IMG/VR virus record: IMGVR_UViG_3300008261_000125
Span: 1 to 64,000 of that record
Source of the DNA: a virus
DNA: 64,000 nt
Strand: one strand, 5' to 3'
Shown: positions 558 to 57,780 of the stretch, in pieces
Layout: each line of letters starts with the position of its first letter
Numbering within the stretch: the stretch's first letter is position 1
Translations under genes and position numbers: made by a program
Notes under the pieces: model-generated
Databases searched by the model: none
Told to the model about the DNA's origin: nothing
What the model saw: the letters and a program-made list of their open reading frames with translations, nothing else

Positions 558-1553
558 AGATCAAATACAAGAAGAAGCATTAACTGCTCTTAAATATGTA
601 AAAAGAGGAAGCATTGGAGTATCTGTTGGAGTTGGTAAAACCCTCATTGGATTAAAACATATGGCAAGTATGTATAATGATAGTTCATTCTTTTTAGTTA
701 TATTACTTTTAGTACTTATCTATCTCTTAATAAACAAGATTTGGACTATGATGCAGTGTATTTAGATGAGGCACATTCTATATTAGATTCTCATGATAAT
801 TGGTTGACTTGTTATAAAAACCACTTAATAGGACTAACAGGTACACCTCCTAAATACTCTACATCTCAGAAAGGAAAGCTCTTTAACAAACATATACCAA
901 TTGTATACAAGTATATTACAGATAAAGCAGTTAATGACAAAATTTTAAACGACTATGAAATCTTAATTCACAAGGTTAAACTAAACACAAAACAAAACAT
1001 AAAAGCAGGGAAAAGCCCCAAGCTATTCTACACATCAGAACATGCTAATTACCATTACTGGACTAATAGATGCAACTCAGCAACTTCTCCTAAAGAGCAA
1101 CAGATTGTGAGAATCATGAGAATGAAGGCATTAATGAGTTTTAAATCTAAAGAAGATCATGCTAAAAGGCTATTAGACTCTATAGATGATAAGGTTATAT
1201 TGTTTGCTAACACTCATGAACAAGCAGATAGTTTTGATATAGAAAGTTATCATAGTAAAAATATCAATTCTAAATATAATCTTGAGGATTTTAAGAAAGG
1301 TACAATTAATAAACTCTCTTGTGTATTACAATTAAGTGAGGGTATTAATATTCCTAATTTAAAACAAGGTATTATAATGCATGCTTATTCTGGTGGTAGT
1401 GCTAAGAGTCAACAAAGATTTGGTAGGTTGCTAAGGTTAAACCCTGATGAAAAATGTACTTTGCACATATTGTGTTATGAAAATACAATTGATGAACAAT
1501 GGGTTGCAAGTTGTTTAGAAGATCTAGATCAATCTAAAATTAAATGGTTATAA
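544..1553 (+). pseudogene. SF2 (DEAD/DEAH-like) helicase, broken by internal deletion and frameshift
   Basis: Two overlapping frames make one helicase. The first (544-765) carries motif I, GVSVGVGKT. The second (open across 741-1553) carries motif II (YLDEAH), motif III-like GLTGTPP and motif VI-like QQRFGRLLR. Read upstream of 741, the second frame gives ITFSTYLSLNKQD just before the DEAH box, a typical pre-motif-II segment. The first frame runs SSFFLV and then changes to an unlikely hydrophobic tail. The natural junction is therefore near 699/702. In SF2 helicases of this type some 50-70 residues (motif Ia region) normally separate GKT from this segment; here there are almost none. I infer a deletion with frame change, so the product should be inactive unless this is an assembly error. 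Family assignment is strong; the damage is read directly. Confidence 0.75.
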
Positions 1554-18353: not shown

Positions 18354-20147
18354 ATGTCAGAGAAAACCCATTGGGTAATGGATTATGAAACACTAATCAA
18401 TTGCTTTGTAGCATCTCAGATTACTCAGTTTATTCTGAATGATCATCAGAAATTAAAAGTATTACCAGTAAATGAAATTATTACAAAAATTTATCAGAAA
18501 GCTCAAACTACTATCAGAAAATCTAATGACAAAGAGTTTTTAGATTATCCTGAATGGAAATTGAGCATTGGTCAAATTGATGTTTTTAAAATTAATCATT
18601 GGGACAATGCAAATAAAAGAACTAGTTTAAAGTGGGCTGAGTTTGCTATTGATTCTGAAAATGTGCAAGACATGTCTATACACCATGAAACTGCTATTAA
18701 CAATAAAGAAGAGATTGAAATTGTATCTTCCTACTGCGTTAATGATGTCTTGGCAACAAAAGCAATATTGCATCTATCTAAACCATTGATTAATGTTAGA
18801 AATAGAATCAAGACCAAATATGGACTAAACTGCTATAATTTTTCTAATACTAAACTGGGAAGTGAATTGTTACTGAAACTTTATTGTAGTGCTACAGGAA
18901 AGAATGCATATGAGGTTAAGCAATTAAGAACACATAGAGATCACATCAATATTAAAGATATACTATTTCCATATATCAAATTTAAGTCTCTTGAATTTCA
19001 AGGATTTCATGAAATGTTAAAGACCAAGATTATCTATGATACTAAGAATGGTTTTAAATATACTATGAAGTTCAATGGTTATGAATTTGATTATGGTGCT
19101 GGTGGTATTCATCAATGTATTAAAACAGGAATATACAAAGCAGAAAATGGTATTATTATTAAAGACTTAGATGTAGCTTCTCTATATCCTAGTATTGCAT
19201 GTATGAATGAAATGTATCCTGCTCATTTAGGATCTGAGTTCTTTGGTGTATATAAGAATGATATTGTTGATGTAAGGTTAGCAGAAAAATCTAAACCAAA
19301 ACAAGATAGAGATATGGCTATTATTGAGGGGTTTAAAGAAGCTGCTAATGCAACTTATGGTAATAGTAATAGTGAGTATTCTTGGCTATATGATCCGCAG
19401 TATACTATGCAAACTACTATTAATGGTCAGTTGTTAATAACTATGTTGGTAGAAGAATTACTTCTTACTATTCCTGAATCTGTATTACTACAAACTAATA
19501 CTGATGGTGCTACTCTTATGTTTAATAAGTCTTATTTAGATGTTTATAATCAAATCTGTAGGAAGTGGGAGGAAGTCACCAAGCTCACTCTTGAATTTGC
19601 TGATTATAAAGCAATGTATATCTGGGATGTAAATAATTACATAGCAGTCTATACTGATGGTAAGACTAAATGCAAGGGTAGATTTGAATGGGAAGATTTA
19701 CAAAACCACAAGTATACACACTTACATAAGAACAAGAGCTTCTTAATTATTGCTAAAGCTATTTATGCATACTTTGTTAATGACATACTTCCTGAGACCT
19801 TCCTACTGAATAACAGAAACATATTTGATTATTGTGGTGGAGCTAAAATAAAAGGTGAGTGGGAGTTTCAACAAATATGTGTTGATAAAGATGGCATCCA
19901 TAAGAACAAACTACAAAAGACTCTAAGATATTATATCTCTTCTAAAGGTTGTAAGATTTATAAAGTCAACAAACATGATAAGAGAGAAATACAATTAGAA
20001 TCTGGAAGATGGATGCAAGAACTGTTCAACAAGTATGAAGAAAAACCTTGGGATGATTATCATATTGATGACTCTTATTATCTTGAAAACATATATAAAG
20101 AGATCAACAATATCATAATGAAAAAAACCCAGCTAACACTGTTTTAA
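18354..20147 (+). CDS. family B DNA polymerase with a shortened exonuclease domain
   Basis: A 597-aa polymerase from ATG 18354 (a TTG lies in frame at 18336). Motif A is DLDVASLYPS (271-280), motif B FKEAANATYG (327-336) and motif C TNTDG (381-385). Motif C keeps the second, catalytic Asp but has Asn at the first. In the exonuclease part, Exo I is MDYETL (9-14) and Exo III is YCVND (127-131). Directly after NCFVA (16-20) comes SQITQFIL (21-28), a sequence that in relatives follows the Exo II FD motif. The expected intervening 60-100 residues, including Exo II, are missing in frame. Polymerisation motifs look intact; proofreading is probably lost. It should be the phage replicase. Confidence 0.85.
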   Translation: MSEKTHWVMDYETLINCFVASQITQFILNDHQKLKVLPVNEIITKIYQKAQTTIRKSNDKEFLDYPEWKLSIGQIDVFKINHWDNANKRTSLKWAEFAIDSENVQDMSIHHETAINNKEEIEIVSSYCVNDVLATKAILHLSKPLINVRNRIKTKYGLNCYNFSNTKLGSELLLKLYCSATGKNAYEVKQLRTHRDHINIKDILFPYIKFKSLEFQGFHEMLKTKIIYDTKNGFKYTMKFNGYEFDYGAGGIHQCIKTGIYKAENGIIIKDLDVASLYPSIACMNEMYPAHLGSEFFGVYKNDIVDVRLAEKSKPKQDRDMAIIEGFKEAANATYGNSNSEYSWLYDPQYTMQTTINGQLLITMLVEELLLTIPESVLLQTNTDGATLMFNKSYLDVYNQICRKWEEVTKLTLEFADYKAMYIWDVNNYIAVYTDGKTKCKGRFEWEDLQNHKYTHLHKNKSFLIIAKAIYAYFVNDILPETFLLNNRNIFDYCGGAKIKGEWEFQQICVDKDGIHKNKLQKTLRYYISSKGCKIYKVNKHDKREIQLESGRWMQELFNKYEEKPWDDYHIDDSYYLENIYKEINNIIMKKTQLTLF

Positions 20148-27039: not shown

Positions 27040-30000
27040 TTAACAGTTTAATTTTTTGTCATCAATATCTTGTTTAGTAACAATAACCTGTCTATTTAAT
27101 ATGTCCAAAGGACTAAGTGCATCACTATTTCCAGGATTGTCATAACCAAACTCATCTTTAAGCTTGTTAGACAAATATACTGATAATTCACCACCTAAGC
27201 TAGTTGGTTGAGTAGTAGTTCTAGTAGTAAATTTCTTAAATCCTTCTATATCTTGTTTAGAACCTAATTCTTTGTACTCAGTAATAGGTTCATTTTTTAT
27301 ATCTTCAAGCATTTGCTTATAAGATTCAGCATGTCTATCTATTGTAGAATCTGGTACATTTGCCCTATTTTCTCCTCTTGCTATTTGTGTTTTAATTCTT
27401 TGTTTAGCTAATTCAGGATTTAATTCCATTAACTTATATTGAATATTAACAGTAGGTATTGCTTTTTTAATAGCTTCTATAAAAGGTAATCTTTTATCTT
27501 TAGTGAGATTAGTAGTATCAAATACAACTTGTTTACCTTGTTTAATTGCTTGTACAGCTCTATTAGCAGCTTCAATATAAATTTCTTTATCTTTAGATTT
27601 ATTATTTATATCACCTGTAAATTCAACTCTCATTGCATCAGGTTCTATAACTACTAAGTTTTCTTTAGGTAAAGATTTTATAAATGTAGATTTACCACTA
27701 CCACTTGTTCCTATAGGTAATATAACATTAGGTTGTTTAGTATCAAGATATTGAGAGTATTGTTCAGGTGTACCTATGTTAGCTAACTCAGGATTAGATT
27801 CAAATAGTTCTGATACTCCTTCTTTAACACTAGTAGATGGTTGAGTAGTTATAGGAGCTTGTTCTGATCTTATTTTTTGAAAAGGTAACTCATCTTCAAA
27901 CATGTCTGCTTTCCAGTTACCACTAGGTAAACCTTCTTCTATTCTTACAACTTCACTTCTAATTAAACTTCTAGGATACTTTTTAGCTACTTCTTTAAGT
28001 TTGGCTATTTTAGTATTGATTAAAGCTTGAGAAGTGTATTCTTTATTTACACTTTTTTTAGCTTGTTCATACTCTTCTTTTGTAATTTTAACCCAACTAG
28101 AAGATTTTGTAAAATCTTTATCTATTAATTTAGAATACCGACCTTCTATCATATCAAAAACATATCTAATATCTCCTATATTAAAAGCATTTACCCCTTC
28201 TTCACTATACTCCATTATTGAGTATTTCTTTTTAACACTATCAATACTCTCTTTTAAAGTTTCATTAGTTTGAGTTGGTTGAATACCTACTTGTTTACTA
28301 ATTTTAACTGAAAGATCATCAAATTGCCCCATATATTCTTTATAATCTAAAGCCTCTTTTTCTGTATTAAATATTGTACTTTTATTAAGATCTCCATAAG
28401 CAGATTCTACTTTTACTATATACTTAGTACCAAACTCTTTTTGTTTAATCTCAGGTTTAACTAATTTACCATATCTTTGGTCAAGGATAGAATTAATACT
28501 ATTTATAATCTTTTTAGTTTGATAAGGAATGTCTTCATCATATTCAAGTCTAAAATTACTTCCTGTTAAAGAAATACCCAGTTCATTATGGTGGTGATCT
28601 AAATTATCTACAATATTAGCTAAATTTGGTTGTACAGCATCAACATTCTTTAAAGAAGGATATTTAGAATAACTAACTCCTAATAATTCAGATTTTTTAT
28701 CTTTATTTATTTTTTCAGAAGCATCCCATACACTACCACTAAAAACATCAGCATTAGCAGCCCATAAAATGTCTTCTGATTGAGGGTAAATTTTAAATTT
28801 AATTTTACCTCCACCTCCTTCTAAATGACCTATTTTTTTATCAACAGGTTTAGTGTAAACAGAAATAGCAAACTTACCTCCAGCTTTCTCATTATCTTCT
28901 ATATGTTGCAATAAGTTTTGCATCATAAGATTTACATCAAATGAAGAATAAGCTCCTACAACAGAAACAAACTCTTGTCCTCTACTATATATTTCTTCAG
29001 GATTATATTGAATATTATTTACTTTTTTCCATTCTTCTATAATTTCTTTAGACTGTTCGTATTCTTTGTTTTTTGCTATAAAAGATTTAGCATTATGAGA
29101 TTCATTTGTTTTCTTTATCTCAATATTTGAAACATTATCCCTTTGATTTAAAGTTTCTACAAATTTTTCTGCTTCTTGTTTATTTATAAAATCTTTATTG
29201 TAATATTGAACATCATAAGGGTCTTCTGGAACATTTGGTCTAAAATTCATTTCTTCCCATGTTACCCAATGTGTTTCAGGTAATATCACGCTCTCTAAAT
29301 CAACATCTTCAACACTTTTAGCTAATTGACTAATATGATTACTAACTTCCTGATAAGTTTTAAACTTCATATTATCAGGAGTAGTATATTCTACTTCATA
29401 TCCTGGAAGTATAAGTTTAGAGTTAGAGTAAGCTAATAAATCAGCTATATCTCCAATAGTCATATTATCAGGTAATTTGTCTATTTCTACTTCTCTTTGT
29501 TTAAGAAGTGATTTAACAAACTGTTTTATTTCTTTAAGTAATCTTCTAAGAAGAGATATAAGTTTGCCATCTTTAACTGCATCAAGTTTATTAGCAGTCA
29601 TCATACCAAGAAGTTCTACAATAGCTTCTTCTTGTTGTTCTTCTAAAGAGTATCTTATAATTTCAGGACTATCCGGGTATTGCTCTATATATTCTTCTTC
29701 AGTAAAACCTTCATCCCAGTTGTCTTTTATTTTTTGAGATAACCCCTTTATATTGTAATCTCTCTTAACCCTATCTAATACTTCTTTACCTCTACCTGTT
29801 TCAAGTTCTTTGAGTAAATTTTTATATAGTGTAGGAATAGAAGCTAATTGTTGTTTAAATGTTATTTCTTCTTCTTTAGAAAATCCTTCCCATGCTTCTG
29901 CTAATTTATCTTTTTCAAATTGTGATAATTTGTTATTACTTAAAGTTTTAATAGCTCTAATAATAGGATGTCCTAATATTTCATGTATAGGAGTATCTAA

Positions 30001-30330
30001 TGTAGCATATGCTAAATTAACGACTGCTGATGTACCATCCATTAAACTTCCATATTTGTCTATATATCCATCTTGTAATTTACCTTTAAACTCTTGAGTT
30101 CTATCAGATATAAATCTAACAGGTATTCCTATTCTATCAGACATTCTAGCTGCTATATCTCTTAAAGTTTTTTCAGATGCAATTATTTCATCAGATGTAG
30201 CTAATTGATAATTTACTTTTGAATCAGATGCTGTATATCTTTTAGCATATTCTACTTCTGCATAAAGAGGATCACCTACTTCAGCTAATATTTGCTTGAA
30301 CTCTATACTATTTGGATTAACACAAATCAT
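27040..30330 (-). CDS. polyvalent protein with zincin peptidase and P-loop kinase (zeta/PNK-like) domains
   Basis: A 1096-aa protein. DTPIHEILGHPII (about residues 110-124) is an HExxH zincin motif, and EEAIVELLGMM (about 232-242) supplies a possible third ligand. The middle (370-780) is mixed and unrecognised. Residues about 860-1015 form a P-loop kinase: GTSGSGKST (Walker A), IEPDAMR, QVVFDTTNL and an arginine-rich lid region (AKQRIKTQIARGE), like zeta toxins and polynucleotide kinases. Proteins mixing peptidase and nucleotide-processing domains are known as polyvalent proteins and are thought to be delivered with phage DNA. The ATG overlaps the upstream stop (TAATG). Confidence 0.72.
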   Translation of the reverse strand: MICVNPNSIEFKQILAEVGDPLYAEVEYAKRYTASDSKVNYQLATSDEIIASEKTLRDIAARMSDRIGIPVRFISDRTQEFKGKLQDGYIDKYGSLMDGTSAVVNLAYATLDTPIHEILGHPIIRAIKTLSNNKLSQFEKDKLAEAWEGFSKEEEITFKQQLASIPTLYKNLLKELETGRGKEVLDRVKRDYNIKGLSQKIKDNWDEGFTEEEYIEQYPDSPEIIRYSLEEQQEEAIVELLGMMTANKLDAVKDGKLISLLRRLLKEIKQFVKSLLKQREVEIDKLPDNMTIGDIADLLAYSNSKLILPGYEVEYTTPDNMKFKTYQEVSNHISQLAKSVEDVDLESVILPETHWVTWEEMNFRPNVPEDPYDVQYYNKDFINKQEAEKFVETLNQRDNVSNIEIKKTNESHNAKSFIAKNKEYEQSKEIIEEWKKVNNIQYNPEEIYSRGQEFVSVVGAYSSFDVNLMMQNLLQHIEDNEKAGGKFAISVYTKPVDKKIGHLEGGGGKIKFKIYPQSEDILWAANADVFSGSVWDASEKINKDKKSELLGVSYSKYPSLKNVDAVQPNLANIVDNLDHHHNELGISLTGSNFRLEYDEDIPYQTKKIINSINSILDQRYGKLVKPEIKQKEFGTKYIVKVESAYGDLNKSTIFNTEKEALDYKEYMGQFDDLSVKISKQVGIQPTQTNETLKESIDSVKKKYSIMEYSEEGVNAFNIGDIRYVFDMIEGRYSKLIDKDFTKSSSWVKITKEEYEQAKKSVNKEYTSQALINTKIAKLKEVAKKYPRSLIRSEVVRIEEGLPSGNWKADMFEDELPFQKIRSEQAPITTQPSTSVKEGVSELFESNPELANIGTPEQYSQYLDTKQPNVILPIGTSGSGKSTFIKSLPKENLVVIEPDAMRVEFTGDINNKSKDKEIYIEAANRAVQAIKQGKQVVFDTTNLTKDKRLPFIEAIKKAIPTVNIQYKLMELNPELAKQRIKTQIARGENRANVPDSTIDRHAESYKQMLEDIKNEPITEYKELGSKQDIEGFKKFTTRTTTQPTSLGGELSVYLSNKLKDEFGYDNPGNSDALSPLDILNRQVIVTKQDIDDKKLNC

Positions 30331-33300
30331 TATTTATAACATTTATTTAGTATTTCTATAGTTTTATCTCTATCCTCGGTCATTAATCTGTTGTTGATTC
30401 TTTGGACAATTTCATCATCAGACAAATTTTTGTAAGCATTTTTATACTTATCTCTTAGTGCAACTAATATAGTAGTTCTTTCTTCATTATTGTAAAGTTG
30501 TTCAAAAGTTCTAGCTGTACCTTGTGACTTAGTAGTTATAGGAGCTTGAGTAGGTGTAGCAAGTTTAAACTCTATTTGCCAAGCTTTATCTAATTCCAGT
30601 CTTACCTTATTATTAAAATAGTCTACAGACCAACCTTCAAGCTTGGACCATTCCTTGGCTGTTTTACCAGAATCTTTTAGTGGATGAAGAGTTTTTGTTA
30701 CAACTACATCTACAGTTCTACCATCCCCAGAATCCCAAGTTATAATATCTCCAACCTTAGCAGATTTCCAATAGTCAAAAGCTTTATGATCAGAATATCT
30801 TGTAGTAGCTGTTCTTTCACCTTTAAGTATTGCATCAAATGTTGTAGAACTTGTAACATCAGATCTTTTATTTTTACCATAAGGCATTTTCATTTGACCT
30901 GATAGTTTATTAGGTGTAGTTACAGGAGCTTGTGGTTGAGAAACAGATGAATAAGCATCATTAAGTGTTTCAATAAACCAGTTTCTACCATTAGTTTCCC
31001 ATACTGTATTTTTACTAGTAGGTTGGTGGGTAGAACTTAATATCCAAGCTGATCCTCCTTGTTTGTTAATTTCAGTAACTAATCTAGGATGTTGTTGAAG
31101 TTTAGCTGTAATAATATCTACCATTAGATTATAAGTACTATTAGGACCATCATCTTTAGTAGCAGTAGATTTTAAAGCTTGATAAGCAGCTTCAGCATCT
31201 TTATAAGTTTTACCTCTAAATTCAACAGGATAAGATTTTGTAATATTTCCTTTAGATTTAGAAAGTTCAGTTGGATTAGTAAGTGCTCCTGCTAACCCTT
31301 TAGCATTAGAACTTATCTCTACACCTTTACTTACAGTAACTTGTGGTTGAGTAGACTTGCCAAATCCTTTATCAGATAAAACTATTATTTTACCTGATTC
31401 TTTGATCTTGTTAATAGCAGTGTCTATATCAGCTTTAGCTTGTTCTAATTCTGTCTCTGTTGATATATTAAGGTTTACTTGTAAGTCATTGTCATTTAAT
31501 ATAAATATTATATCAGGATTACCTTGTTTTAGCATTTGTAATTCACCTGCTGGTAAAGATTTAATTTGATTAGTAGAAGGATCCTCATAAGATTGACTTA
31601 TTACATAAACTCCATCATCAATTTTAGATACATAAGGTTTATCAAACAAGTAAGTATCTTTACCAGTAGCATCTGCTATTAATTGATTAACTGATCTTTT
31701 ATAGCTAATACCTCTACCTTTAAGTCTATTGTTTTCAGTTTGATTATTTTGTTTAAAGAACTCATAAAATCCTTCTAGTACCATGTTAGCTTTAGACTCA
31801 TTTTTATTTAAGAATGTATAGAATGCTTCAGAAGCTTTTTCCATTACAGGTCTATATCTATCATAAGGCATGATACTGTTTAATGAAAATTCACTAGAAT
31901 CCATACCACTCTGTAGGAAAGCAATCATAGGTAACTGAGCAAAGAACTCACTAATATATGCATTAGCTTGTGCTCTATTAGCTGTTTTCTCAGACACTTT
32001 CATTTCTTTAGGATTAGCTAACTTAAGCCACTCATTATAGTATTCTTCACTCAAGTTTTCATCTAACTCAGTTAAGTTTTTAATCTTAAAGTTAGTTCTT
32101 GACATGTGGTTCTTTTTACTACTTATAGAAGATGCAGAAAATTGTCTAACTAAATCAAATTGAAGTTTTAATTCAGGATAGCTTTCAATAATACTAATTA
32201 GTTTTCTAGCTGTAGTATGCTCACCAGATCTGAATAACTCATAGTTATTATAAGTATTACTTAATGCTTCATGCATTAATACATACTCATAAACTATTTT
32301 GTTTAATCTATTTGTATAATCTTCTTGACTTTCACCTTCTCTTTTAACAAATAAACTAACCCCACTATTTACAAGTCTGTTTTTAGCACTTTGAAATTCT
32401 TTTGTTCCTAATAAAGATTCTAAACTTTTTATCTTTCTTAAATATTCTCTTTCTAAACTGAACTCAATAAATGATTCAACATCATTTTGATTAAATGCAG
32501 ATGGATGAATATAAAATAATCCTCTTCTTAAATAAGCTTCATCAGATTTAGAACTAGATAAGTGATTTTCATTAGCAAAATCACTTCTTAATTGCTCAAT
32601 ACTTTTAACAGGACTGTTCTCATTAAGTAATTCACTAATAGGAGTTTGTTTGTATTCACTAGCACCTTGTTTATATTGTTTAAGAACATTAGTAAATATG
32701 TATAAACTTAAAGCATTTTTAAATCTGTTAATAAATGTTTCTTCATCTAAACCAGTTTCTTGTTTTAGAATAGCTCTTTCAATTGGATTCTCTAAAGTTT
32801 TTATTAAGAATTTATTTACTAAATCATTATCCCTTGTAGCAAATAAGTTTTTACCAAATAATGCTCTAGAAAATTCTTGAATAAAGAATGATGATATAGC
32901 ACTCTCTTCTTTGAAATGAACTTTAAGAGAAGAATCTAATGTTTTAAACTTATCAATTTTTTCAATGTCATGTATTTTAGCTTGAGCTGCAAAGTTATCA
33001 ACTGCTGATTCTGTATCTACATTAAGATATCCTTTAAGGTTATCAAACTCTTCAATTAAATCTTCAATATAAAAATACTGTAATAAACCAGCTATTTGTT
33101 CTTTATTAAATTTAAATGATTGTTTTGCTACTTCTTTTAAAGATTCTTTACTAAAAGATACATCTTTATATCTTGTATTTAATATTTTATAAAATCCAGC
33201 AATATTATTTTTTAATTGATTTCCATCAAGATCTACCATTACTCCTTTAAGTAATTCTTTTCTTGCTTTATTTTTAGCAGAAGTAGTTGTATTTCTATGT

Positions 33301-36300
33301 TTAGGACCATAGATTATTTTTGCTAAAGGTGATTTATAATTTATCTTAGATTCAACATATTTTCTAATCATAGGATTACTTACAAAATACGCTATATCCT
33401 CTATAGGAACACCTGCTTGTAATAAGAATAATGTTTTAGGAATTACTTCCATGTTACCTTGTAAGTAACTAATCCATGCATCTTTACCAACATCCACAGC
33501 ACCATTCATCAATTGAGATAAAATATCAGCTATATTATTAATTTTTTCAGCATCTGTTTTATTAGATAAAGAAATAACTTCAATCTCTTTTAATGTTTTA
33601 CTATCAATTTCTTTAGTTTTATTATAATTAAGTCTTAGTTTAATTGGAACTTTTACAGGTGATAAAACTTCACTATCACTATAGTATGGATTTTCTACTT
33701 CAAATGAATAATTCATTTTAGCACCAGCCATAGTTAACATATTAGCAAATGTATTATGTAAAGTAATAAGTCCTAAAATGTTTTTACCTGTAATATTATC
33801 TTGTTGTTTTTTAAGATTGTAAGCATACTCAGTCATTTTAGTAGGACTCACTCCACCACCTGGAGTTGATTCTCCAGTTTTAATAGATTTAGTATGATCA
33901 ACTTCATTATCTGCTTTTTGAATATCTTTTTTGAGTGTATTAGATAAAGGTTTAGTTAAATGAGTATCATTAGGTTGCATTAATGAGAAAGCCATCTCTG
34001 GCATTTCCATAACCCCAATAATATTATCTATAAATTTATTTTGAATAGCAGCAGTAAAGTTTCTCTTATGTTCTTTTAAATTAGAAAGTTCATTATAAGC
34101 TCTACTTAATTCACTATCTTTTGATATTAATTCAGTAATTAAATTTTCAATTTCAGGATATTTTTCTGAATCAAATCCTTTAATTTGTTTAGATAAAATT
34201 TGATAAGATTCTGGAAGATTCTTTTTAATAAACTCTTGTTCCTTTGGATTACTTAAAGTTTTTAATAACTCTTCATTATTATAAGTAGTATAAGCAAAGA
34301 ACTTTTCTTTAACAAGTCTTTTATGTTTACTTTCTTTTTTAATACTATTTCTAAAGTCATCAAGATCTTCTTTAATAGTTAATTTATCAGCTTTTAAATC
34401 TTTTAATTTAGTTTTTAATTCTTGAATTTTAGCATCTAATTCTTCTGGTGTTTTATAAGTATCACCTGCAGATGCTGGTAAGAATTCATGTATTTGAACA
34501 AACTCAACTGAGTTAGGTCCTTGTGTAGGAATCCTTACACCAGTCATTCTAATAGAGTTTTCATTTTCTTTTAACCAAGCTTCATTCTTAATCATTTCAT
34601 TAAGTCTTATGAAACTTGCATCATAGTCTAATACATATTTAATCTCAGATTCTGTATCAGGGTTCTTTACATAAACAGCTACTTTATCTGTAGTCTTTTT
34701 ACCATTAACATAGTAATTAGTAGAGAATAGATTTTGATAGTTATCTGTTAAGGCAACTTTAACCTTTGCACCTATAGTCTCTTTACTACCATTTGTACTA
34801 ACAATATATCCACTTAAACCATTAGTACCAAAGTCATCATATTCTTTTGTTTGTTCAATAGTAGGTTTTTTAAATGATTGTGTAAGAGCAGAAGAAACTT
34901 GTACTAAAGGTTCACCTTTAATTTTAAGTTTAATCAATCTATTATTAATAACAGACATTAAAAGTTTTTCAAGTCTAGCAGCTTGAGGACTTAAACTTAA
35001 ATCAATTTTCTTGTTAGAACTATATTGAACAAAGTCTATTTCATGATCACTATATCCTTGACTTTTTAATATATCAACAACATAAGTAATCATGTCATCA
35101 ATATTACCTTCTGGTAAACCATTTACTTCAGTCCAACCCATTTCTTCTAATAGGTCTTTTCTCATGTACTCAGTTAACCTTTTAAGTTGCTTATATACTT
35201 GTTGTGTATTTTTATAAGCATTACTGTTTTTTAGCTTTTCAGCTTTAGTTAAACTGTTCCATTCCTCTTTAGTACCTTTATAATCTATAGGGACACCATT
35301 ATCAAATAACCCAACATTAAACACTTTACGTAACTGAGTAGATAAAACACTCTTTCCTTTAAAGTATTTATTAACTTCTGTTTGATTTTTTAAGTATTCA
35401 AAGTAAATAGGATTAGGAGTAAAGTTAATATCTTGATATTCTTTGATATTACTTGTATCACCTTCATAAATACTATCACCATTAGTTTTGTCATCAGCTC
35501 TTAAGTAAGATCTCTTAGCTCCAGAATCAAATAATGCATAGTCAATGTTTTGAGCCATCATAGCTAAGTGCATTTTTTCTAAAGGTAATCCTTTAATTAC
35601 ACTAGGAATTAATGGTAATAAACTGAATTTATCAATACTTTGTATAGGATAGTTCTTTAATTCAGTTACTAATGGTCCTGCATACTGTAATTTATATACT
35701 GGGAATAAATCAGTTAACTCTTCAGGTGTAAGACTTTCTCCTCTAAGTTCTTTTTGGTAAGCAGCTTCTTGTTGTTCTGTCCAACTATTTTCAAGATTTT
35801 TTAAGATTCTATATGAGTCAAATGATATCCATCCTTGACCATCACCATCTTTAATTCCTGTATATGGTTGTAATAAACCTCCAGTAATATTAGTTTCAGA
35901 ACCACCTTTACCATATAAAGCTTCGTTAATATCACCTTGATATTTTTTTTCTTTTAACCAATGTCTGAACATTTCAGCATAATCATCTAAGTAAATACTA
36001 TCTACTTTACTCTCTTTGATTATTGCTTTGTTACCTTTACCTGTATATAATCTTGACTCAGTTTGATTTGGATCTCTTCTTACTAATTTACCACTCTTAA
36101 CTAGACTATCTTCATATGGTCTTTTTACATGAGTATTAATAAATAGTTTTGCTAGTTCATCAGTAGGGAAGATTAGACCAGAAGAGTTATAAGTAGGAAC
36201 CCTTTTTAAACTCTCGTCATTGATATGATTAAATTGAAATCCATCACCAAGCTCTAACAATATAACTTCATTAGCATGTAAAGAACTGTTTATAGCAAAT

Positions 36301-39300
36301 GAATATAATAAAGCATCTTTAATACTATCAGTTGTAGCTACTTGTCCTTCAGTAAGATGTTCTTCAGCAATTGATCTTAAGAAATTAGGAACATTATTAC
36401 CAAAAACTTTATTATAATTATTAACTTCTAATGATTTTTTTGAAGTTTCAAAATAGTTAATAATTTCTTTTTCAATTTCTTTTCTTAACTCAAGGTTTTT
36501 ATTTAATAAACTATTTAAAGTAGTTTCATCATTTAACTGACTAGCATACTCATTAATAAGTTTATTTTTTAATTCACCATCTTTAGTATTTAAGATATCA
36601 TCAAAATAATCAAACTTAATACCTTTTTCATAAAAGTCTTTAGCTTTAGAATAGTACTCTTTATTGTCTTTGATTTTTTGAATTCTTCTTAACTCACCTT
36701 CTAACTTAGGAATCATTATGTCCATTACTTTATCAAATGGATTATATCCTAATAAGTAATTACCATTAATATCTTTTAAGAAAGCTTGAGTATCTACATA
36801 TAAATGGTTATTCTTTTTAAGTGAATAAGTGTTAAGTCTTTTTACTTTAACTCCAGTATAAGTACTTTTTTCACCATGTCTTACAGCTTCAATATATCCA
36901 TCTTTTAACATAGAAGCAAAGTCAGTAATAAACTTATCAACTTTGGTCATTGAACCGTGTGAAACACCATTACTATCATCAGATAAATCTTCATATTGAG
37001 AACCAGTTAAATCTACTAATTCAATACCATTAAGATTATTTCTCTTACCTGTAGTGTCAAATAATGAATTCATTATAACACTACCTATAACATGAGGGTT
37101 GTTTTCTTTAACTAAATGAGGAACATAACTATAAGCACCACTTTTTAATTCATCTAAAGAACCTGCTTTCTTTAAAGCATATACAATTTGAGTTAAAGTT
37201 GTATTTAATGAGAATGCACTTTTCTTACTTTTTTCTGCAGTAAGTTTCATCCTACTAATGTTTTCTGTAGAGAACTCAGCATCAATCTTAGCTAATGTAT
37301 TAACATTAGAAGCTTGATTATCTATAGCACCCTCAATAAACTCACCAGTAGCTAGTTCAATTTTAATCTTATTATGTTTTTGACCTAAGAAATTAACTAT
37401 GTTAGTAATAGGTAATAGGTTTCTTTTTGCTAAGATGTCTTTGTTAGCTTCTGCTAAACCAATAGCATTAACAATATAATCAAAAGCTTTTGTAGTATCA
37501 TCATTAATAGCTTTTCTAACATCATAGTTATCTTCTAAATACATACCTATTGCATTTAAGAATGGAATCTTTAATGATTCATCTTTAATGAAATATTTAG
37601 TAATACCTTCTTTACCTATAGCAGAAGATGTTAAAAATTCTTTAACTACTTTACTTAAGTTAAGAGTATTTTCTTTATTAGCATTTACAGTAACAAATGG
37701 ACCTGATTCAGTAGAGAACTTAGCTGGCCATACTTTATTTTTAATTGCTGAGTGATCAGCTGATACTTTACCTACTACAAAACTAACTTGAGTTTGATTA
37801 TCAATGGTTTCTTCTTTAAATTTAGAAGTAACTAAATCTTCTCTTTCTAAGTTCAATGATCTGAATACACCCATCCAAATTTTAGATGCACCAGCACCTT
37901 TATCAGCACCCATAACCACAGTAGGATCACCTAGTTTTTCTAACAACTGAGCAAATAAAGGTGAAGTATTTTTAACTGATGCTAGTTTTTTGTATAACTC
38001 ATCAACTCTTTTTTCACCACCAACTTTATCTATTAAATTGTTAAAGAACTGTTTATGATTAATAGGCTCAGGAAATCCTAGACTATTTAATATATTAACT
38101 CTTTCTCCATTTACAACTTCTTGTTTTAATAAAGTCTTTAGGATGTATGTACAATCAGCAGTAGCAAGTTCATATGATTCAGTTTCATTACCACCTTCTC
38201 TTCCAGATTTAGATAATGGAGACTCATAGTTCTCATCAATCATTTCATTAAATGAACTGTTTTGTAAATGGTAAGTAATAAGATCTAACTTATCACCTTT
38301 TCCATTTAAAGAATTAGTTGCATCACCATAGTTATCTAAAGCTTTTATTAACAATAAAACATTGTTTCTTTTATATTTTCTTTCAATCTTATCCCACTTA
38401 GTTTTATTATTTTTATCTTTAGCATAATCTGCTTCAAACTCTTTTCTTAAAACATCTAATCTAGATGCTAATTTCTTTTTAATTGCAGAATTATATAATA
38501 AAGTTAATCTCTCTTGTCCTTTTAAGATATTAGCTGCAGCATCATATTTACCTTTTAATAAATAACCTGTAGTTATATCAGATATAATACCATCCATACT
38601 CTTAACAAGTAATGATGCTTCTACTGGAGTAAATATTACAGTACCATCTTTAGCAATTATACCAGAGTTTAATACACCAAACTCAGCATTGTCCATACTT
38701 GGAGTATACATGTTTAATTGTTCAGGACTTTCTGCTGTATATAACTGATTAAACATTTCAGATAATATACCTTGAGAACCAGGATTAGAATAAACATTAA
38801 TATCAGTTGTTCCTTTAAATAATGTTTTTAAGAATTTCCAAACTCTATCAAAGATTCTTGAGAATATATTTGATTTTTCATTTTCAGTTTTGAACTTACC
38901 ATTGTTCATGGCATATACTCTGAACTCTTCTGCTATAAATTCTTCTAACTCTTTTCTAGAAGCTTCAGTAAATTCTACTTTAACTGTTTGGATGTTATTA
39001 CTTTCATTCTTTCTGGTAACAGTGAAGGTGCCTGGTAATTGTCCTACAGCTTCATATAGTTTATTTCTATCAGCTTTAGATAAATATATCTGACTGAATG
39101 CATGCCAAGCCTCATGGTAATTATGAGTGTAATCTGAACCTGCAAACAAAGTAATAGTAGCATTACTAAAACTAGCCCAAGCATCTGAGTTAACTAAATT
39201 AAAAGCTTCTTTTAAAGTAATCAATGGTTTACCATTAGAGTCTTTAGCTTTAGATAATGCACTTTTTTCCCACCATGTTTTTGCTTTAGCTTTCTGTTCT

Positions 39301-41192
39301 GGAGTAGCAATACTTTCAATTAACTTAGATCTTAATAAACTTTCTAGTTTATCTTCTTCATCAGTATCTTCTTGTATAATTGTTTTAGCATTATTAACTA
39401 CTTCTTTTACTTCTTGTTCTACTACTGCTGTTTCATTAGTAGGTTCAAAACTGAAATATCCATTAGCTACTAATGGTCTTTCTGTTGTAGAATCAAAAGC
39501 AATTCTGGGGATCATGTTTTGTAAAACATAATCTTTAATGTAATTAATAGGTTGTACACTTACTACACCATCTTTAATATTAAATCTTTCAATGGTTACT
39601 TTATTTTTTAAATCAGTAGAGAAGTTAGCAAATAGTTTTGCACCCAAAGTTTTTACTAGCTGTTCTTTAGCTTGTACTTTATCTGATAAATCTAACTGCT
39701 GTCCATTTAAACTAATAACAATTTCATTGTTTACTATTGAAAGATTAAATACAGATCTATCTAATTTACTAGCATAGTTATTAAAATAACTTTGTCTATC
39801 AGCTGGAGATAATGGTTTACCATTTTCATATACTAAATCATCAATCAGTACAGAAATTAAACTATCAAACAATGATCTATCACCTGCAAGAAGGTTTCTA
39901 CCTTTTAATGATATAGGTTTATCAATATTGTTTATTTTAATAGATGGTAAGTTTAATGTTTTAACAACACCTTTTACCATCATATCAGCATATGCTATTG
40001 CAATACTTTCAATTTCAGTATCTGTAAGATTAAATTGACTTAGTGTTTTTTCAACTAAAGATTTGTATTGTTTTAATTTTTCAGGATCAGTTATTTTCTT
40101 AAATGTCTCATCAGTATTTTCATGATAACCTTTTTTACCACCTGTTATATCTAACAAAATTGGTTGGTTATCCATTACAGATTTGGATATAAGATCACTT
40201 TGTTTTTTTTCTTCATTAACCATTTGGTTAATTTTAGAAATAAGTTCATTTCTTAATCTTGAGTATTCAAGAGGATCATTTTTAGATTGCTCTCTTAAAG
40301 CTGTCTCATTACTTTTTAATAACTCTTCTTTAAGTGCTTTAACTTTAGCATCAGAAGAGTCTTTCATATAGAAGTAAACTATTTTACCATCTTCTTTAGA
40401 TGTAATCTCACCTTTACTATTAAAGTATAAAAACTCACCTTTGTTATTAGTTAATGCTAGAATTATTCTCTTAGAACTTAAAGTAGCTCCAGGATATATA
40501 TTTTTTTCTAAATCAGGTAATGTATTTTCTACTATTGGTTTTAATTTAAAACCTTTATGTCCACTATATTCTACATTAGAGTAATTAGCATTATCAGTTG
40601 TATTAGCTTCTAATACTTTAGTTAATACATTATAGTAAAAGTTTTTACCAGCATTTGTTTTAGTAAATATAGGAAGACCTGATACTTCTTCTAACTGTTG
40701 ACCTGTTGAGTTTTGTAAAGATAAACTAGTTAATATTTTATTAAGAACTAATTCTAATATTTGATTTTCATTAGATACTTCAGACTGAGTTTCAGGAGTG
40801 GTAACACTATTTTCTAATATGACTTTCATACTAGTTTTAGTACCAACTTTAATGTAATTAGCAATTTCTTTTAAAGGATCCTCTGACTTATTAACTAATA
40901 ACTCAAAATTTCTTACAGCTTTTAAATCAAAGTTTTTGTCTATTAACTGAGTTAGTAATTTAGGATTGTCTTCAATAACTTGAAAAAACACTGTAGGAAT
41001 AACTGCTGCTATTCCTAAAGACTTAGCTTGGTCTTTGTTTTTCTCATAAGCAACATAATAAACATCTCTTACTACTTCTAATATTTTAAAAGGTTTATCA
41101 GGAGTCTTTAAGTTGTTTAAAATCTTATTGTAGACCTGATTAGCAAGAACTTTAGCTAATTCTTTATTTTCATCTAAATTACAAATACTCAT
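30330..41192 (-). CDS. giant RNA-polymerase-like polyvalent protein (zincin, RNAP-like core lacking the Asp loop, NADAR-like, ASCH-like)
   Basis: A 3620-aa protein from ATG 41192 (a TTG lies in frame at 41201). HNYHEAWHAF near residue 694 is a zincin motif. MAQNIDYALFDSGAK and, near residues 2210-2235, RIPTQGPNSVEF and HEFLPASAG fit the double-psi barrels of crAss-like virion RNA polymerases. The DFDID-type metal-binding loop expected right after this is absent; the chain goes to TYKTPEELDAKIQ and a coiled coil. IQNKFIDNIIGVMEMPEMA then fits the downstream core. Residues about 3294-3416 (YPVEFRGKTYKDAEAAYQAL) look NADAR-like, and about 3432-3530 (ATTRYSDHKAF, KVGDIITW) ASCH-like. RNAP assignment is from remembered patterns. 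Confidence 0.68.
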   Translation of the reverse strand: MSICNLDENKELAKVLANQVYNKILNNLKTPDKPFKILEVVRDVYYVAYEKNKDQAKSLGIAAVIPTVFFQVIEDNPKLLTQLIDKNFDLKAVRNFELLVNKSEDPLKEIANYIKVGTKTSMKVILENSVTTPETQSEVSNENQILELVLNKILTSLSLQNSTGQQLEEVSGLPIFTKTNAGKNFYYNVLTKVLEANTTDNANYSNVEYSGHKGFKLKPIVENTLPDLEKNIYPGATLSSKRIILALTNNKGEFLYFNSKGEITSKEDGKIVYFYMKDSSDAKVKALKEELLKSNETALREQSKNDPLEYSRLRNELISKINQMVNEEKKQSDLISKSVMDNQPILLDITGGKKGYHENTDETFKKITDPEKLKQYKSLVEKTLSQFNLTDTEIESIAIAYADMMVKGVVKTLNLPSIKINNIDKPISLKGRNLLAGDRSLFDSLISVLIDDLVYENGKPLSPADRQSYFNNYASKLDRSVFNLSIVNNEIVISLNGQQLDLSDKVQAKEQLVKTLGAKLFANFSTDLKNKVTIERFNIKDGVVSVQPINYIKDYVLQNMIPRIAFDSTTERPLVANGYFSFEPTNETAVVEQEVKEVVNNAKTIIQEDTDEEDKLESLLRSKLIESIATPEQKAKAKTWWEKSALSKAKDSNGKPLITLKEAFNLVNSDAWASFSNATITLFAGSDYTHNYHEAWHAFSQIYLSKADRNKLYEAVGQLPGTFTVTRKNESNNIQTVKVEFTEASRKELEEFIAEEFRVYAMNNGKFKTENEKSNIFSRIFDRVWKFLKTLFKGTTDINVYSNPGSQGILSEMFNQLYTAESPEQLNMYTPSMDNAEFGVLNSGIIAKDGTVIFTPVEASLLVKSMDGIISDITTGYLLKGKYDAAANILKGQERLTLLYNSAIKKKLASRLDVLRKEFEADYAKDKNNKTKWDKIERKYKRNNVLLLIKALDNYGDATNSLNGKGDKLDLITYHLQNSSFNEMIDENYESPLSKSGREGGNETESYELATADCTYILKTLLKQEVVNGERVNILNSLGFPEPINHKQFFNNLIDKVGGEKRVDELYKKLASVKNTSPLFAQLLEKLGDPTVVMGADKGAGASKIWMGVFRSLNLEREDLVTSKFKEETIDNQTQVSFVVGKVSADHSAIKNKVWPAKFSTESGPFVTVNANKENTLNLSKVVKEFLTSSAIGKEGITKYFIKDESLKIPFLNAIGMYLEDNYDVRKAINDDTTKAFDYIVNAIGLAEANKDILAKRNLLPITNIVNFLGQKHNKIKIELATGEFIEGAIDNQASNVNTLAKIDAEFSTENISRMKLTAEKSKKSAFSLNTTLTQIVYALKKAGSLDELKSGAYSYVPHLVKENNPHVIGSVIMNSLFDTTGKRNNLNGIELVDLTGSQYEDLSDDSNGVSHGSMTKVDKFITDFASMLKDGYIEAVRHGEKSTYTGVKVKRLNTYSLKKNNHLYVDTQAFLKDINGNYLLGYNPFDKVMDIMIPKLEGELRRIQKIKDNKEYYSKAKDFYEKGIKFDYFDDILNTKDGELKNKLINEYASQLNDETTLNSLLNKNLELRKEIEKEIINYFETSKKSLEVNNYNKVFGNNVPNFLRSIAEEHLTEGQVATTDSIKDALLYSFAINSSLHANEVILLELGDGFQFNHINDESLKRVPTYNSSGLIFPTDELAKLFINTHVKRPYEDSLVKSGKLVRRDPNQTESRLYTGKGNKAIIKESKVDSIYLDDYAEMFRHWLKEKKYQGDINEALYGKGGSETNITGGLLQPYTGIKDGDGQGWISFDSYRILKNLENSWTEQQEAAYQKELRGESLTPEELTDLFPVYKLQYAGPLVTELKNYPIQSIDKFSLLPLIPSVIKGLPLEKMHLAMMAQNIDYALFDSGAKRSYLRADDKTNGDSIYEGDTSNIKEYQDINFTPNPIYFEYLKNQTEVNKYFKGKSVLSTQLRKVFNVGLFDNGVPIDYKGTKEEWNSLTKAEKLKNSNAYKNTQQVYKQLKRLTEYMRKDLLEEMGWTEVNGLPEGNIDDMITYVVDILKSQGYSDHEIDFVQYSSNKKIDLSLSPQAARLEKLLMSVINNRLIKLKIKGEPLVQVSSALTQSFKKPTIEQTKEYDDFGTNGLSGYIVSTNGSKETIGAKVKVALTDNYQNLFSTNYYVNGKKTTDKVAVYVKNPDTESEIKYVLDYDASFIRLNEMIKNEAWLKENENSIRMTGVRIPTQGPNSVEFVQIHEFLPASAGDTYKTPEELDAKIQELKTKLKDLKADKLTIKEDLDDFRNSIKKESKHKRLVKEKFFAYTTYNNEELLKTLSNPKEQEFIKKNLPESYQILSKQIKGFDSEKYPEIENLITELISKDSELSRAYNELSNLKEHKRNFTAAIQNKFIDNIIGVMEMPEMAFSLMQPNDTHLTKPLSNTLKKDIQKADNEVDHTKSIKTGESTPGGGVSPTKMTEYAYNLKKQQDNITGKNILGLITLHNTFANMLTMAGAKMNYSFEVENPYYSDSEVLSPVKVPIKLRLNYNKTKEIDSKTLKEIEVISLSNKTDAEKINNIADILSQLMNGAVDVGKDAWISYLQGNMEVIPKTLFLLQAGVPIEDIAYFVSNPMIRKYVESKINYKSPLAKIIYGPKHRNTTTSAKNKARKELLKGVMVDLDGNQLKNNIAGFYKILNTRYKDVSFSKESLKEVAKQSFKFNKEQIAGLLQYFYIEDLIEEFDNLKGYLNVDTESAVDNFAAQAKIHDIEKIDKFKTLDSSLKVHFKEESAISSFFIQEFSRALFGKNLFATRDNDLVNKFLIKTLENPIERAILKQETGLDEETFINRFKNALSLYIFTNVLKQYKQGASEYKQTPISELLNENSPVKSIEQLRSDFANENHLSSSKSDEAYLRRGLFYIHPSAFNQNDVESFIEFSLEREYLRKIKSLESLLGTKEFQSAKNRLVNSGVSLFVKREGESQEDYTNRLNKIVYEYVLMHEALSNTYNNYELFRSGEHTTARKLISIIESYPELKLQFDLVRQFSASSISSKKNHMSRTNFKIKNLTELDENLSEEYYNEWLKLANPKEMKVSEKTANRAQANAYISEFFAQLPMIAFLQSGMDSSEFSLNSIMPYDRYRPVMEKASEAFYTFLNKNESKANMVLEGFYEFFKQNNQTENNRLKGRGISYKRSVNQLIADATGKDTYLFDKPYVSKIDDGVYVISQSYEDPSTNQIKSLPAGELQMLKQGNPDIIFILNDNDLQVNLNISTETELEQAKADIDTAINKIKESGKIIVLSDKGFGKSTQPQVTVSKGVEISSNAKGLAGALTNPTELSKSKGNITKSYPVEFRGKTYKDAEAAYQALKSTATKDDGPNSTYNLMVDIITAKLQQHPRLVTEINKQGGSAWILSSTHQPTSKNTVWETNGRNWFIETLNDAYSSVSQPQAPVTTPNKLSGQMKMPYGKNKRSDVTSSTTFDAILKGERTATTRYSDHKAFDYWKSAKVGDIITWDSGDGRTVDVVVTKTLHPLKDSGKTAKEWSKLEGWSVDYFNNKVRLELDKAWQIEFKLATPTQAPITTKSQGTARTFEQLYNNEERTTILVALRDKYKNAYKNLSDDEIVQRINNRLMTEDRDKTIEILNKCYK

Positions 41193-41194
41193 AA

Positions 41195-44100
41195 TTAACA
41201 AATGTTATCTTGTATATCTTTTTTAAGTTCATCTTCTGATTTCTCTGTGTAAGTTATATTAACATTTTTAATAGCTGATTGATTTTGTACTGCTGTATCA
41301 ATATCCTCTTTACTATTTTGTATTCCTTGGATGTCAATTATTGATTTAATTTCATTAGGAATGTTTTCTGTTTTTACACTGATATCACCAGATAATCCTG
41401 ATAAAGATACAGAATTTTCTTTTATTTCCTTTATTATATATCTACCATTTTTCTCTGGATTATCAACTGATTCATACATAACTTCATAATTTCTGTCTTT
41501 AGCAACCTGAAGACTGTTAATGTTAATATTCTGATTTAATGTTTCTATAGTAGCTTGTTTACTCTCTGGTACTTCTACTTTAGCTTTTTCATTTTTAGGT
41601 GTACTCTCTCTTATATATGTAAGAACATTTCCATTATATAATACTTCAATTACATCAGTAGAAGGTTTGTCACCAACTGCTTTTTTAATCTTTTGTATAG
41701 TAACCTTTTCTCCAATAGGTAACTTGTTATCTTTAAAGAATTGAGTTACTCTTACTACTCTACCATCATCTAACACTACATGATATGAACTCTCATCAGC
41801 TGCATTAGGATATACACCTTTTTGAAATACACCACTAAGTTGCTCACCTGGCTTAAGTTCATCAACAATAGTTTTAAATTTCTTTTCTATTGATAACTCA
41901 TTAAATTCTCCTACAGGTTTACCTTTTAAAGCTTTTAGTTCTGCATCATATCTAGTATTGATTTTAGTTACTTTGTTACCTAAGTGAGTACTTCTGTACT
42001 TTTCACCTTTTTCTTCATATCTTCTTTGGTCAAAAGTATTGTAACCTATTTTTGGTTCTAAAGATGTTTCAACTGTTTCAATAACTTTTCCATCTTTAAC
42101 AATAGCAAGTTTTACATCTTTCCCTTTTACTTGCTCATTAGTATCATAAACATTTCCAGCAGAATCAACTACATATAACTTTTTACCATCTTGCCTATTT
42201 TGTGCAGAAAGAAAATCTTGTTCTTGTTGTACATTTTTAAACTTAACAAATACAATTAAGTCATTAGGTTCATTTTGTTCTCCAGTAGCTGTTTTAAATC
42301 TTTGTGTTCTACCATCAGGTAACACAGTATAAACACTTCCTTTAGCTGTTTCAAAACTTTCTATATCAGCTTTCTTATCAGAAACAGTACCTTCTAAAGC
42401 AGCTAGTTCTGCATCGTAATCTCTATATGCAATAGCTTCTGCTTTTCTTATTCTATTACTAGCAAGATTTTCAAATAGTTCAGAATCAGTAAATCCTTCT
42501 GAACCCATTGCTTTTCCTGTATCTGACACCACAGCTATTATCCAAGTCCATAATCCATTTTCTTTTCTTTTAGCCCTCCCAACTTTTACAGTACCATCAG
42601 ATTGTTTTTTACTTATAAGAATTTCATCTTTTCCTTCAATATCTTCAATTTGAACTGGTCCAGAAGGTTTAACTTCTACAAATTGTCTATCAGACCCGTT
42701 AAAAAGAGTTGTTTTATTTAAATTTTTTAAATCTTCTTGTCTTCTCTCTTCTATATCAGCTTTCTTAGCTTTTAAATCTGTAGTAGTTTCGGTTCCAGTT
42801 GGTACTGGAGCTGCTACTTCTAATTTAGAAGGGATGTATTTATTTACAATCTCTTTAAATTCATTATAATTAATCTTTGTTTTACTTGCTCTTGGTTCTT
42901 CTGTTAATGAGGTAATATTACCATCTAAATCTTCTTTTGTTTTAAAAGCTATAAGTTCTAAGTTAGTTACTTTTATTCCTGTAGTATTCTCTAATAAGTT
43001 TTTATATAGAGAAAGCTGTAGGGAATATTTTTCTTTCTTAGCAGACTTATCACTTTTGTTTCCAAAGTATTCCCATTTTGAACTAGTTTTCATGTCATAT
43101 ATTTTGTATTCTCCACCAGGAGTAACTACAAGTAAATCCATTTCACCAGCTATAGTTTGAGGCTTACCATTTACTTCATTAGTTGTAACACCAGATAACA
43201 CTAATCCACTAGCAACTACAACTTCATTTTGTTCAGCTAATTGTTGATCAAATTCAATTAATTTAGTTCTTAAATTGTTAAAAGCTGTCTCACTCATATT
43301 TGATGGTTTTATAAGTTCAACACCCTCAAAATAATCACGGACTAATTTATCTACAACATTACCTCTAATTGTAGTTTCTTCATAAATATATTTTTCAAAT
43401 AGCTTTTTAAAATTATCATTTGAAGTATTAGACTTAAGTTCTTCTTTAAATAGTTTTAATTTTCTACCATTAAATTGTTTATTAAATAACTCTTGAGCTT
43501 TTTGTTTAGCTTCATTATCTTTATTATCTGCTAAATCTTTTTTAATAAATTCAAATATACTGTCTACATATGCTTCTCTATTTTTAGCATTTGCTTTAAC
43601 AGTATCATCTTCTTGAGCTTTTATATAAGCATCAAGAATAGGAGCAGCAGATTTTTCAAATACAGCAAACTTGCTATAATCTGGATAATTTTCTTCTAAG
43701 ATTTGATCAATAAGTTTTGTTACTCTAGTGTCTTTCTTTTCACCATTGATAATATAATTATTATCAACTTTATCTTTATTAACTGTTCTCTTAGATAAAG
43801 CTTTAACAAGAGCTAATGCATTTTCTTGTTCAGGTGTCATTTTAATTGACAATCTGATTTTATAGTTAAGTGCTTGTTTAACTTTATTTAATTCATTTAA
43901 AACACTAGGTTCAGTTTTATATTTTTCTAAAAGCTCTTTATGTTTATTTTCAAGTTCCTTAAGTGTTAAGTTTAAATACTCTTGAAACTCAGCTGTTTTT
44001 TCATTTAGTATTTCTTTTTCTAATTGTTTTTTGAAATCATCAACAATATTTTTACCAGCTGGAAACTGTGTAGAAAATTCTTCAATAGTCATTTCATCAC

Positions 44101-47100
44101 TAATATCTCCTGCTTTAATTAAAGCATTGTATTTTTCTTCTAGTTTAGCTTTAAGTTCATCAGGGTATTCTTCATACTTAGCAGAATCAAATGATTTTAA
44201 AGTTTGTAGTTTCTCATCTTTTTTCTTTTGCTTTTCTAATTCAGCTTTTACAGTTACAATATTTAAATGCATCTCCCATAACTCTAAAGCTTTATCAAAG
44301 TCAACACCTTGAGTTACTTGTTCATTTCTAGAAGGATCTATAAAATTAGTAGGAAGTATAGGTGTTTCCCCTTTATCCAAAGCTTTTTGATATTCAGCAA
44401 TGTACTCTGCAGATAATGTTAAACCAGTTTCTTTTGTAATCTCATTTAAAGCATCATTTTTTTCTTGAAGCTTTACTAACAGATCAAACATTTTTTTTGC
44501 TTGTTCTGCTTTTTCTTTATCATGTTCAGTAATAGCTTGTTGAAGTCTATACTGTAAATTCATAAAACCTTTAGGACTGCTTAGTACATTAATACTTTCA
44601 GCTAAACCTTGTCTGTCTTTTTGAATTTGTAATCCATCTTTTAATAAAGAAAATGCTTCATCCATGTCTTTATCAAAAACTATGGTATTATTTTTTTTAC
44701 TTAAATATTTAGCATATTTAGCAAAAACCTTTTTAGCATTTTCATGTATCTTTTCTTTTTCAATAGGATCAGTTGTTTTTTCTGCAGCTAATAACTCTTC
44801 TTGAAACTGTTCTAATATTTCAATTCTTTTTTCTTTATCTCTTTTAACATCAGCTTGTTCTGGTACATTACCTAAAACTTTTACCTCATCTCTTAATAAC
44901 TTAAGTTCTTTTTCTAAACTAGGAAGAGATAATACATTCATTAAAGATTGAGAATCTTCTTTAGCAATATTACTAGACAATTTAGAAAATGAGTTATACA
45001 TTTTCTCTAGTCTTTGACCATAATGCTGAAAAGTATTAGTAGCAAATACTAAGTTTTGTTGTGCTTTTCTCCAAGCAATGGATGAATTAACAGCTGCTAA
45101 ATAAGCATCACTACCATGTTCATATTGATTTGGATTAAATGGATTTGGATAATTAGTAGCTACTTCTTCATAAGTTTCTTTAATCTTTTTAGCTCTGGCA
45201 ATAACACCATCCATTGCTTTTAAAGCTTTACCTACATCTTCTTTAGCTACACCATATTTAGCAAATGCTTCAGCTGCTTCTTCTGGAGATAAGTTTTTAT
45301 AATCTTCTAACTGATCTACAAATAAATCAAACTTACTTGTTTCTAATGCAGTCATTATATGATTATATTCAATTTCTTCTTGAGCATCTTTAGCTTCTTT
45401 ATGCTTACCTTCTTTAATAGCAGTATATAAATCATCTGATAAAGTACCATTTCTTATAACATTATGAATTTCTGGAAAAAAATGTTTTAAATTATCTTTA
45501 GAAAGCTCATTTAATATCTTAACTTGTCTATCAATAGTTTCATCTCTTTTTCTCTTTGCTTCTTCAATTTTAGATTTATCACCTGCTAGTTTAGAAAGTT
45601 TTGTAAATGACCAAGCAGGTACTGCCATAATAGGTTGAGCAAACATACCCATTAAGAAACCTCCAGCAAAAGTCTCAGCTCCTTCAGCAGAAAACTGATC
45701 TTTCATACCTTCCATAAAGTGACCCATGTAACCATGATATGCACCCATCTTAGGATCTTTAAAAACTGCAAGTGCATGATTAATTGCACCTTTAGAAATA
45801 GCTTCTTGAAGATTCTCTTGAATACCTTCAGCAAAGTTGGCTTTTAAATAGTTCATACCAACTTGACCATATATTTTAGGTTGTGCTAATGACTTAGCAG
45901 CAGCTCTAGCTTTAGAACCAAAACCTTCACCTAATTTAGCAAAGCCTTCAGTTGTAGTTGCTTTTAATGGTTTTGATGCTATGATGTCATCAAGTAATTT
46001 AACTGAGCTACCTCTACCTACCATTTTACGAATAGGTGCAAGCATTGTAGCATAAAGTAATTTATTACTAGTCATGATTGCTGGTAAGTTCCAGAAAGCA
46101 GTTCTTCTAGCTTCTTCTCCTGATAATGCTTCTATTTTTGCAAGTTCTTTTTCATCAGGCTCTTGACCAAAATGTGTTCTTTTATATTCATCAATCAATG
46201 CTTTGTTAGCATCAATTTTAACCATACCACCTTCTAACTTAGCTTCTGATACAGCAGTTTTAATACTAATAATATCATCTGCAAAAGCTCCGAATGTTTT
46301 AGTAGTCTTAATAAGATCAGTTGCATAATCAGTTTTCTCTAAAGCTTGTAATGTATTTTCAAATGGGTTTAATGTTCTTAAAGTACCCATTGCTATTTGT
46401 TTAGCCCCTAACTCACCAGCTTTTATAGAATTATAAAAGTTTCTAGCATCATTAAAACTTCTAATACCCTTAATATTATCAGTAGCTTTTTTAACAGTCT
46501 CAGCTTCTTTAGCTAATCTTCCAGCAGCAGCAGCTTTTTCAGCACCTGCTACAGCTTCACCAAAACCCATTAATTTTCTAGTTGCCATACCTGCTTTAGC
46601 AGCCATTCCTGGTAATGTAACTTCACCAGCTAAACCACCTGTAAATGCAGTAACAGCTCCTAATGCAACCTCTTCTGCTAAGAAGTCAGCAGCAATACCT
46701 ATAGTGTAAGCAGAGTTTAAGAATGTATTAGTTACAAATCCACCTATACCACCAGAACTAGAGTTACCAATAGCCATAGCTTTTTGCATTTCTCTAGCAC
46801 TTTCAATATCCGGGGCTAATGGATCTGTGAATAAAGTACCCCATGCTTTAATACCTGATTTAAAACCAGTTAATGCTAAGTTATCCCATTGTGATGCAGC
46901 TCTTACAAACTGATCACCAAATGTCATCTTACTATTATATAGTGCTTCATTATCTCTAAAGGGGGAGAATCCTAAAGTTTTAAATTGATCAGTAGAGTAA
47001 TATCTTTCAAAGTTAGCACCATCCACATCACCATTGTATGTATATGGTCTCATCTTTACATAATCACTCTTAGAAGACTGAACATTTATATCAAATAGTT

Positions 47101-57745: not shown

Positions 57746-57748
57746 ATA

Positions 57749-57780
57749 CAAATATATTGAATTTATTAAATATCATCAAG
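57749..57780 (-). promoter_or_regulatory. possible Bacteroides-type promoter before the 1431-aa gene
   Basis: On the minus strand CTTG (57780-57777), 20 bases, then TATATTTG (57756-57749) nearly fits the TTTG-N20-TAnnTTTG consensus. The -7 box ends three bases before the ATG, so a transcript would be almost leaderless or begin within the gene. This makes it uncertain. Confidence 0.35.

Follow-up and report, generated by a model that had tools for sequence, protein, structure and literature searches.

A catalytic loop missing from the giant RNA polymerase of a crAss-like phage contig is very probably a gap in the sequence record

Introduction

The only solved relative found for the protein described here is phi14:2 gp66 (6VR4), a single-chain, two-barrel RNA polymerase (RNAP) of a crAss-like phage, whose crystallised chain has 2,194 residues and which carries a DFDID loop. 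Departures from this plan are on record. For the Zeta group of crAss-like phages, introns and inteins have been reported, as has a disruption of the DxDxD motif that is left unexplained (PMC7886860). In cr108_1 (MT774385, Steigviridae), the annotated RNAP gene ends at the catalytic motif, ...AKAGSD, where a group I intron (Rfam RF00028, 80 bits) interrupts the motif, which resumes as DIDKMYLYVPNY; apparently no exon sequence has been lost. In the deposited entry MT774385.1 (L005:15349-15667), the intron lies between GSD and ..DIDK, the CDS stops there and the remainder is annotated as a separate gene.

The locus studied here lies in a crAss-like phage record of 95,567 bp in IMG/VR (IMGVR_UViG_3300008261_000125), whose first 64 kb are referred to below as the window. 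Its RNAP gene resembles that of cr108_1 in breaking off the conserved sequence at the catalytic motif, and differs from it in that 37 residues are absent with nothing in their place. It is not an example of the disruptions described by Yutin et al., being a clean absence in a protein whose relatives are intact. The nearest relative found, IMGVR_UViG_3300020167_000001 (L086), has a colinear giant ORF amid the same neighbouring genes, with the same coiled-coil linker after the loop, but its DFDVD loop is intact.

The giant RNA polymerase gene and its setting

The features discussed are collected in Table 1. The core of the 3,623-aa protein, which is longer than the crystallised gp66 chain, aligns with about 120 IMG/VR RNAP loci. 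A profile built from 13 sequences of this family matched a single PDB entry, 6VR4 (E=2.4e-21), aligning with its GYRIPNQGQSSNDPLQIVGILPEAMGDTIVAYTEIPTKTGSDFDIDKMYVMLPN stretch, where gp66 has the loop that the window's record lacks. The same structure was the only significant PDB match in Foldseek searches with AF2 models of the window RNAP core (E=5.8e-7) and of the L086 RNAP (E=1.6e-13). These models are of low confidence (pTM 0.37 for the window vs 0.59 for L086) and, being weak at the loop, contribute little there. Homology in sequence and in fold places the protein among the crAss-like two-barrel virion RNAPs, while the DxDxD metal-binding loop of the beta'-like barrel is absent from the record.

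Table 1. Features of the window discussed in the text
Feature	Position	Strand	Basis
crAss-like virion-type RNA polymerase ORF (P0001)	30330..41201	minus	3,623 aa; stop-free frame and homology
Conserved strand just ahead of the missing loop, RIPTQGPNSVEFVQIHEFLPASAG	34464..34535	minus	Kept in all relatives
Junction where 37 codons (111 bp) with the DFDxD catalytic loop are absent	34463..34464	minus	Alignment to five relatives; tblastn gap at 34463; FLPASAG ends at 34464, DTYKTPEELD starts at 34463
Coiled-coil linker, DTYKTPEELDAKIQELKTK...	34050..34463	minus	Colinear with L086 linker DSYNKPEDLDSLIKEAEEKLKALKGEKLNVVNYLNDFR
76 bp absent, SF2/SNF2-type helicase gene (motif Ia region), frame broken	699..700	+	Versus near-identical contig (L215/L224)
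144 bp absent (48 codons, including the Exo II SFNGLSFD region), family-B DNA polymerase gene	18413..18414	+	Versus near-identical contig (L192/L225)

The gene stands in a row of giant, co-oriented ORFs on the minus strand (1904, 1096, 3623, 2044 and 937 aa), as in a transcription block, and the block order is matched in two related contigs, G001 and G002. From its sequence, it is predicted to encode an ordinary giant crAss-like (Crassvirales) RNA polymerase. Enzyme domains are also fused into other giant proteins of this block: the neighbouring proteins (window 27040-30330 and 41195-47329) include a 1096-aa protein with an AAA_33 / polynucleotide-kinase-like domain at its C-terminal end (residues 869-1005) and a 2044-aa protein with a PD-(D/E)XK nuclease domain.

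The missing catalytic loop

The preliminary description had reported a giant RNAP whose catalytic Asp loop is missing exactly where it should be, and the absence itself is confirmed. The chain reads ...VRIPTQGPNSVEFVQIHEFLPASAG and then directly DTYKTPEELDAKIQELKTK, with the junction between G2246 and D2247. In the alignment to L086, the closest relative (67% identity in the A1 region), the gap corresponds to exactly 37 residues, PIIIIPAEIVAKSGGDFDVDKLTMYIKHITKTGKTLN, which comprise the strand and the loop bearing the catalytic Asp triad (DFDVD). The same 37 columns are occupied in all five closest relatives (L086, L093, L089, L091 and L095). The flanks on either side of the gap are homologous and colinear, and no other gap of that size occurs within the aligned RNAP core; the C-terminal tail is freely variable. 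The wider alignment with crAss-like RNAPs that had been called for agrees, in that the loop is uninterrupted in 161 of 162 RNAP loci (some of them the same contig twice, so that independent genomes are fewer), the exception being the intron of cr108_1. Two contigs flagged with missing core columns, L160 and L140, proved to show an extraction edge and a variable linker. The landmarks RIPTQG, FLPASAG and IQNKFIDNI had been correctly identified, and the length given earlier (3,620 aa) differs trivially.

It might be asked whether the loop is still there in degenerate form, the string DLKADKLTI in the coiled coil being a mutated DFDIDKLTI. Local BLAST alignments to many relatives do extend through aa 2276, and one multiple alignment placed the coil on the loop. 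L086, however, has the loop and also, downstream of it, a colinear copy of the coil (KLKALKGEKLNVVNYLNDFR). Because both occur in one chain there, the coil is the linker that in relatives comes after the loop, and does not replace it. The degenerate-loop reading is refuted by this comparison and keeps practically no probability; the DKLTI string downstream is a chance resemblance.

A genuine RNAP whose active site comes from elsewhere, be it another gene, a fragment that is split off or spliced in, or an additional polymerase, draws some support from the Zeta-group disruptions and from cr108_1, where the intron sits exactly within the motif, and the record is linear and possibly incomplete. 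Scans of all six frames over the full 95,567 bp of the record, extending the earlier observation that the window holds no other DFDxD-type motif, nevertheless found no DFDxD-type RNAP motif, FDxDK or PxEIVAK, nor any copy or fragment of the loop elsewhere. An intron or intein at the junction was considered and rejected, since nothing is inserted there; the window gave no Rfam hit at gathering level. Known splicing, moreover, cannot add an internal segment in trans once the flanks have been fused. Such an origin of the active site is consequently regarded as very improbable.

Two further blunt gaps in the same record

Comparison of the record with three related contigs revealed private losses in conserved genes, two of which could be tested exactly through a near-identical contig. 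This contig, IMGVR_UViG_3300008448_000575 (25,272 bp), is nearly identical to window 700-21224: the 20,525 aligned bp contain 11 SNPs and are free of small indels. It contains the 76 bp missing from the helicase gene, with the helicase ORF intact, and the 144 bp missing from the DNA polymerase gene, with an intact frame of 656 aa. Of the flanks of the latter gap, one (2,093 bp) matches at 100% identity and the other (2,811 bp) at 99.9%, and the 144-bp segment is also present in G002, in G003 and in other phage polymerases. As at the RNAP gap (111 bp), the frame is kept. Both junctions are blunt, with 0 bp of microhomology, and no complete or strong copy of the 76-bp or the 144-bp piece occurs at any other point of the record; recombination through a repeat was rejected for these reasons.

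In a reciprocal test with the four genomes, private losses of conserved segments survived inspection only in the record of the window. An apparent private gap at 22681 turned out to be an artefact of gap placement when L001 and the window were read side by side. At 4146, in a gene assigned by eye as uracil-DNA-glycosylase-like on its GQDPY motif, the difference is an insertion in G002 and not a loss in the window.

Some other features of the record were observed. Immediately left of the helicase gene, window 205-585 has 381 bp against 65 bp in the near-identical contig and the surrounding identity is lower (95-96%), which is probably a strain difference or a recombination boundary. At window 11381-12468, an insertion of about 1.09 kb splits a VWA-like/DUF2201 gene; it contains an ORF for a LAGLIDADG homing endonuclease (11570-12424), its two ends show matches to group I introns below the threshold, and it probably represents such an intron together with its endonuclease. 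Proteins at window 53450-57751 and, past the window, at record 68889-72694 match relatives piecemeal, through several segments that overlap or recur, which suggests virion proteins that are rich in repeats or have been rearranged.

Origin of the gaps

How unusual such gaps are was assessed with 40 other near-identical IMG/VR contig pairs, not all of them independent, in which about 557 kb aligned and only 2 indels of 15-2000 bp were seen (one of 1,629 bp with 9-bp microhomology, the other of 369 bp). Two blunt losses within 20.5 kb, each in a gene for a conserved enzyme and without small indels nearby, do not look like strain evolution.

Real deletions would make this a defective or helper-dependent phage genome, with its RNAP loop, DNA polymerase exonuclease and helicase damaged, borrowing these enzymes from an intact, near-identical sibling. 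Such a sibling is present in IMG/VR, and the remainder of the RNAP frame is undamaged. Yet three losses would have struck replication and transcription genes while 20.5 kb gathered only 11 SNPs and no small indels, both measurable junctions lack microhomology, and assembly would require the defective genome to have dominated the sample. Real deletions are accordingly judged unlikely.

The RNAP gap is very probably a short stretch lost from the sequence record and not real biology, a reading that draws on comparison among the three gaps. A near-identical contig spanning the RNAP gap was searched for in vain, so its status as an artefact is argued by analogy with the other two, and we infer that it shares their origin. 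The preserved frame at the RNAP and DNA polymerase gaps counts against this reading. The record would have lost at least three short stretches, of 76, 111 and 144 bp, with the ends bluntly joined each time, most likely as assembly or scaffolding gaps that were closed up with their sequence left out. N runs occur neither in the record nor in any fetched IMG/VR locus; their absence from the record is expected if gaps carry no Ns, and fits closed-up scaffold gaps while being no proof of them.

The headline that this RNAP lacks its catalytic loop finds nothing in its support, and the gap is most likely an error of the record. Among the three options raised in the preliminary description, those of a dead enzyme and of an active site supplied elsewhere are not supported and that of a lost in-frame segment stands. 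Given that a near-identical contig reveals blunt gaps in two further genes of the record, a loss from the record is much more probable than one that happened in nature. The frame is indeed open over 3,623 codons, as had been held against random decay. This argument is weak, since a random gap keeps the frame one third of the time, and the helicase gap breaks it.

Implications

The absence of the DxDxD loop is attributed to loss from the record, the loop being present in all relatives examined (split by the intron in cr108_1). The real phage almost certainly has an RNAP with an intact DFDxD loop, which would function as other crAss-like RNAPs do, with two double-psi beta-barrels per chain and the metal held by the Asp triad. 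Taken at face value, the gap would suggest a viral RNA polymerase that is split or has no catalytic activity. Where a universally conserved loop is cleanly absent in frame from a metagenome contig, near-identical contigs should be checked before a biological reading is given.
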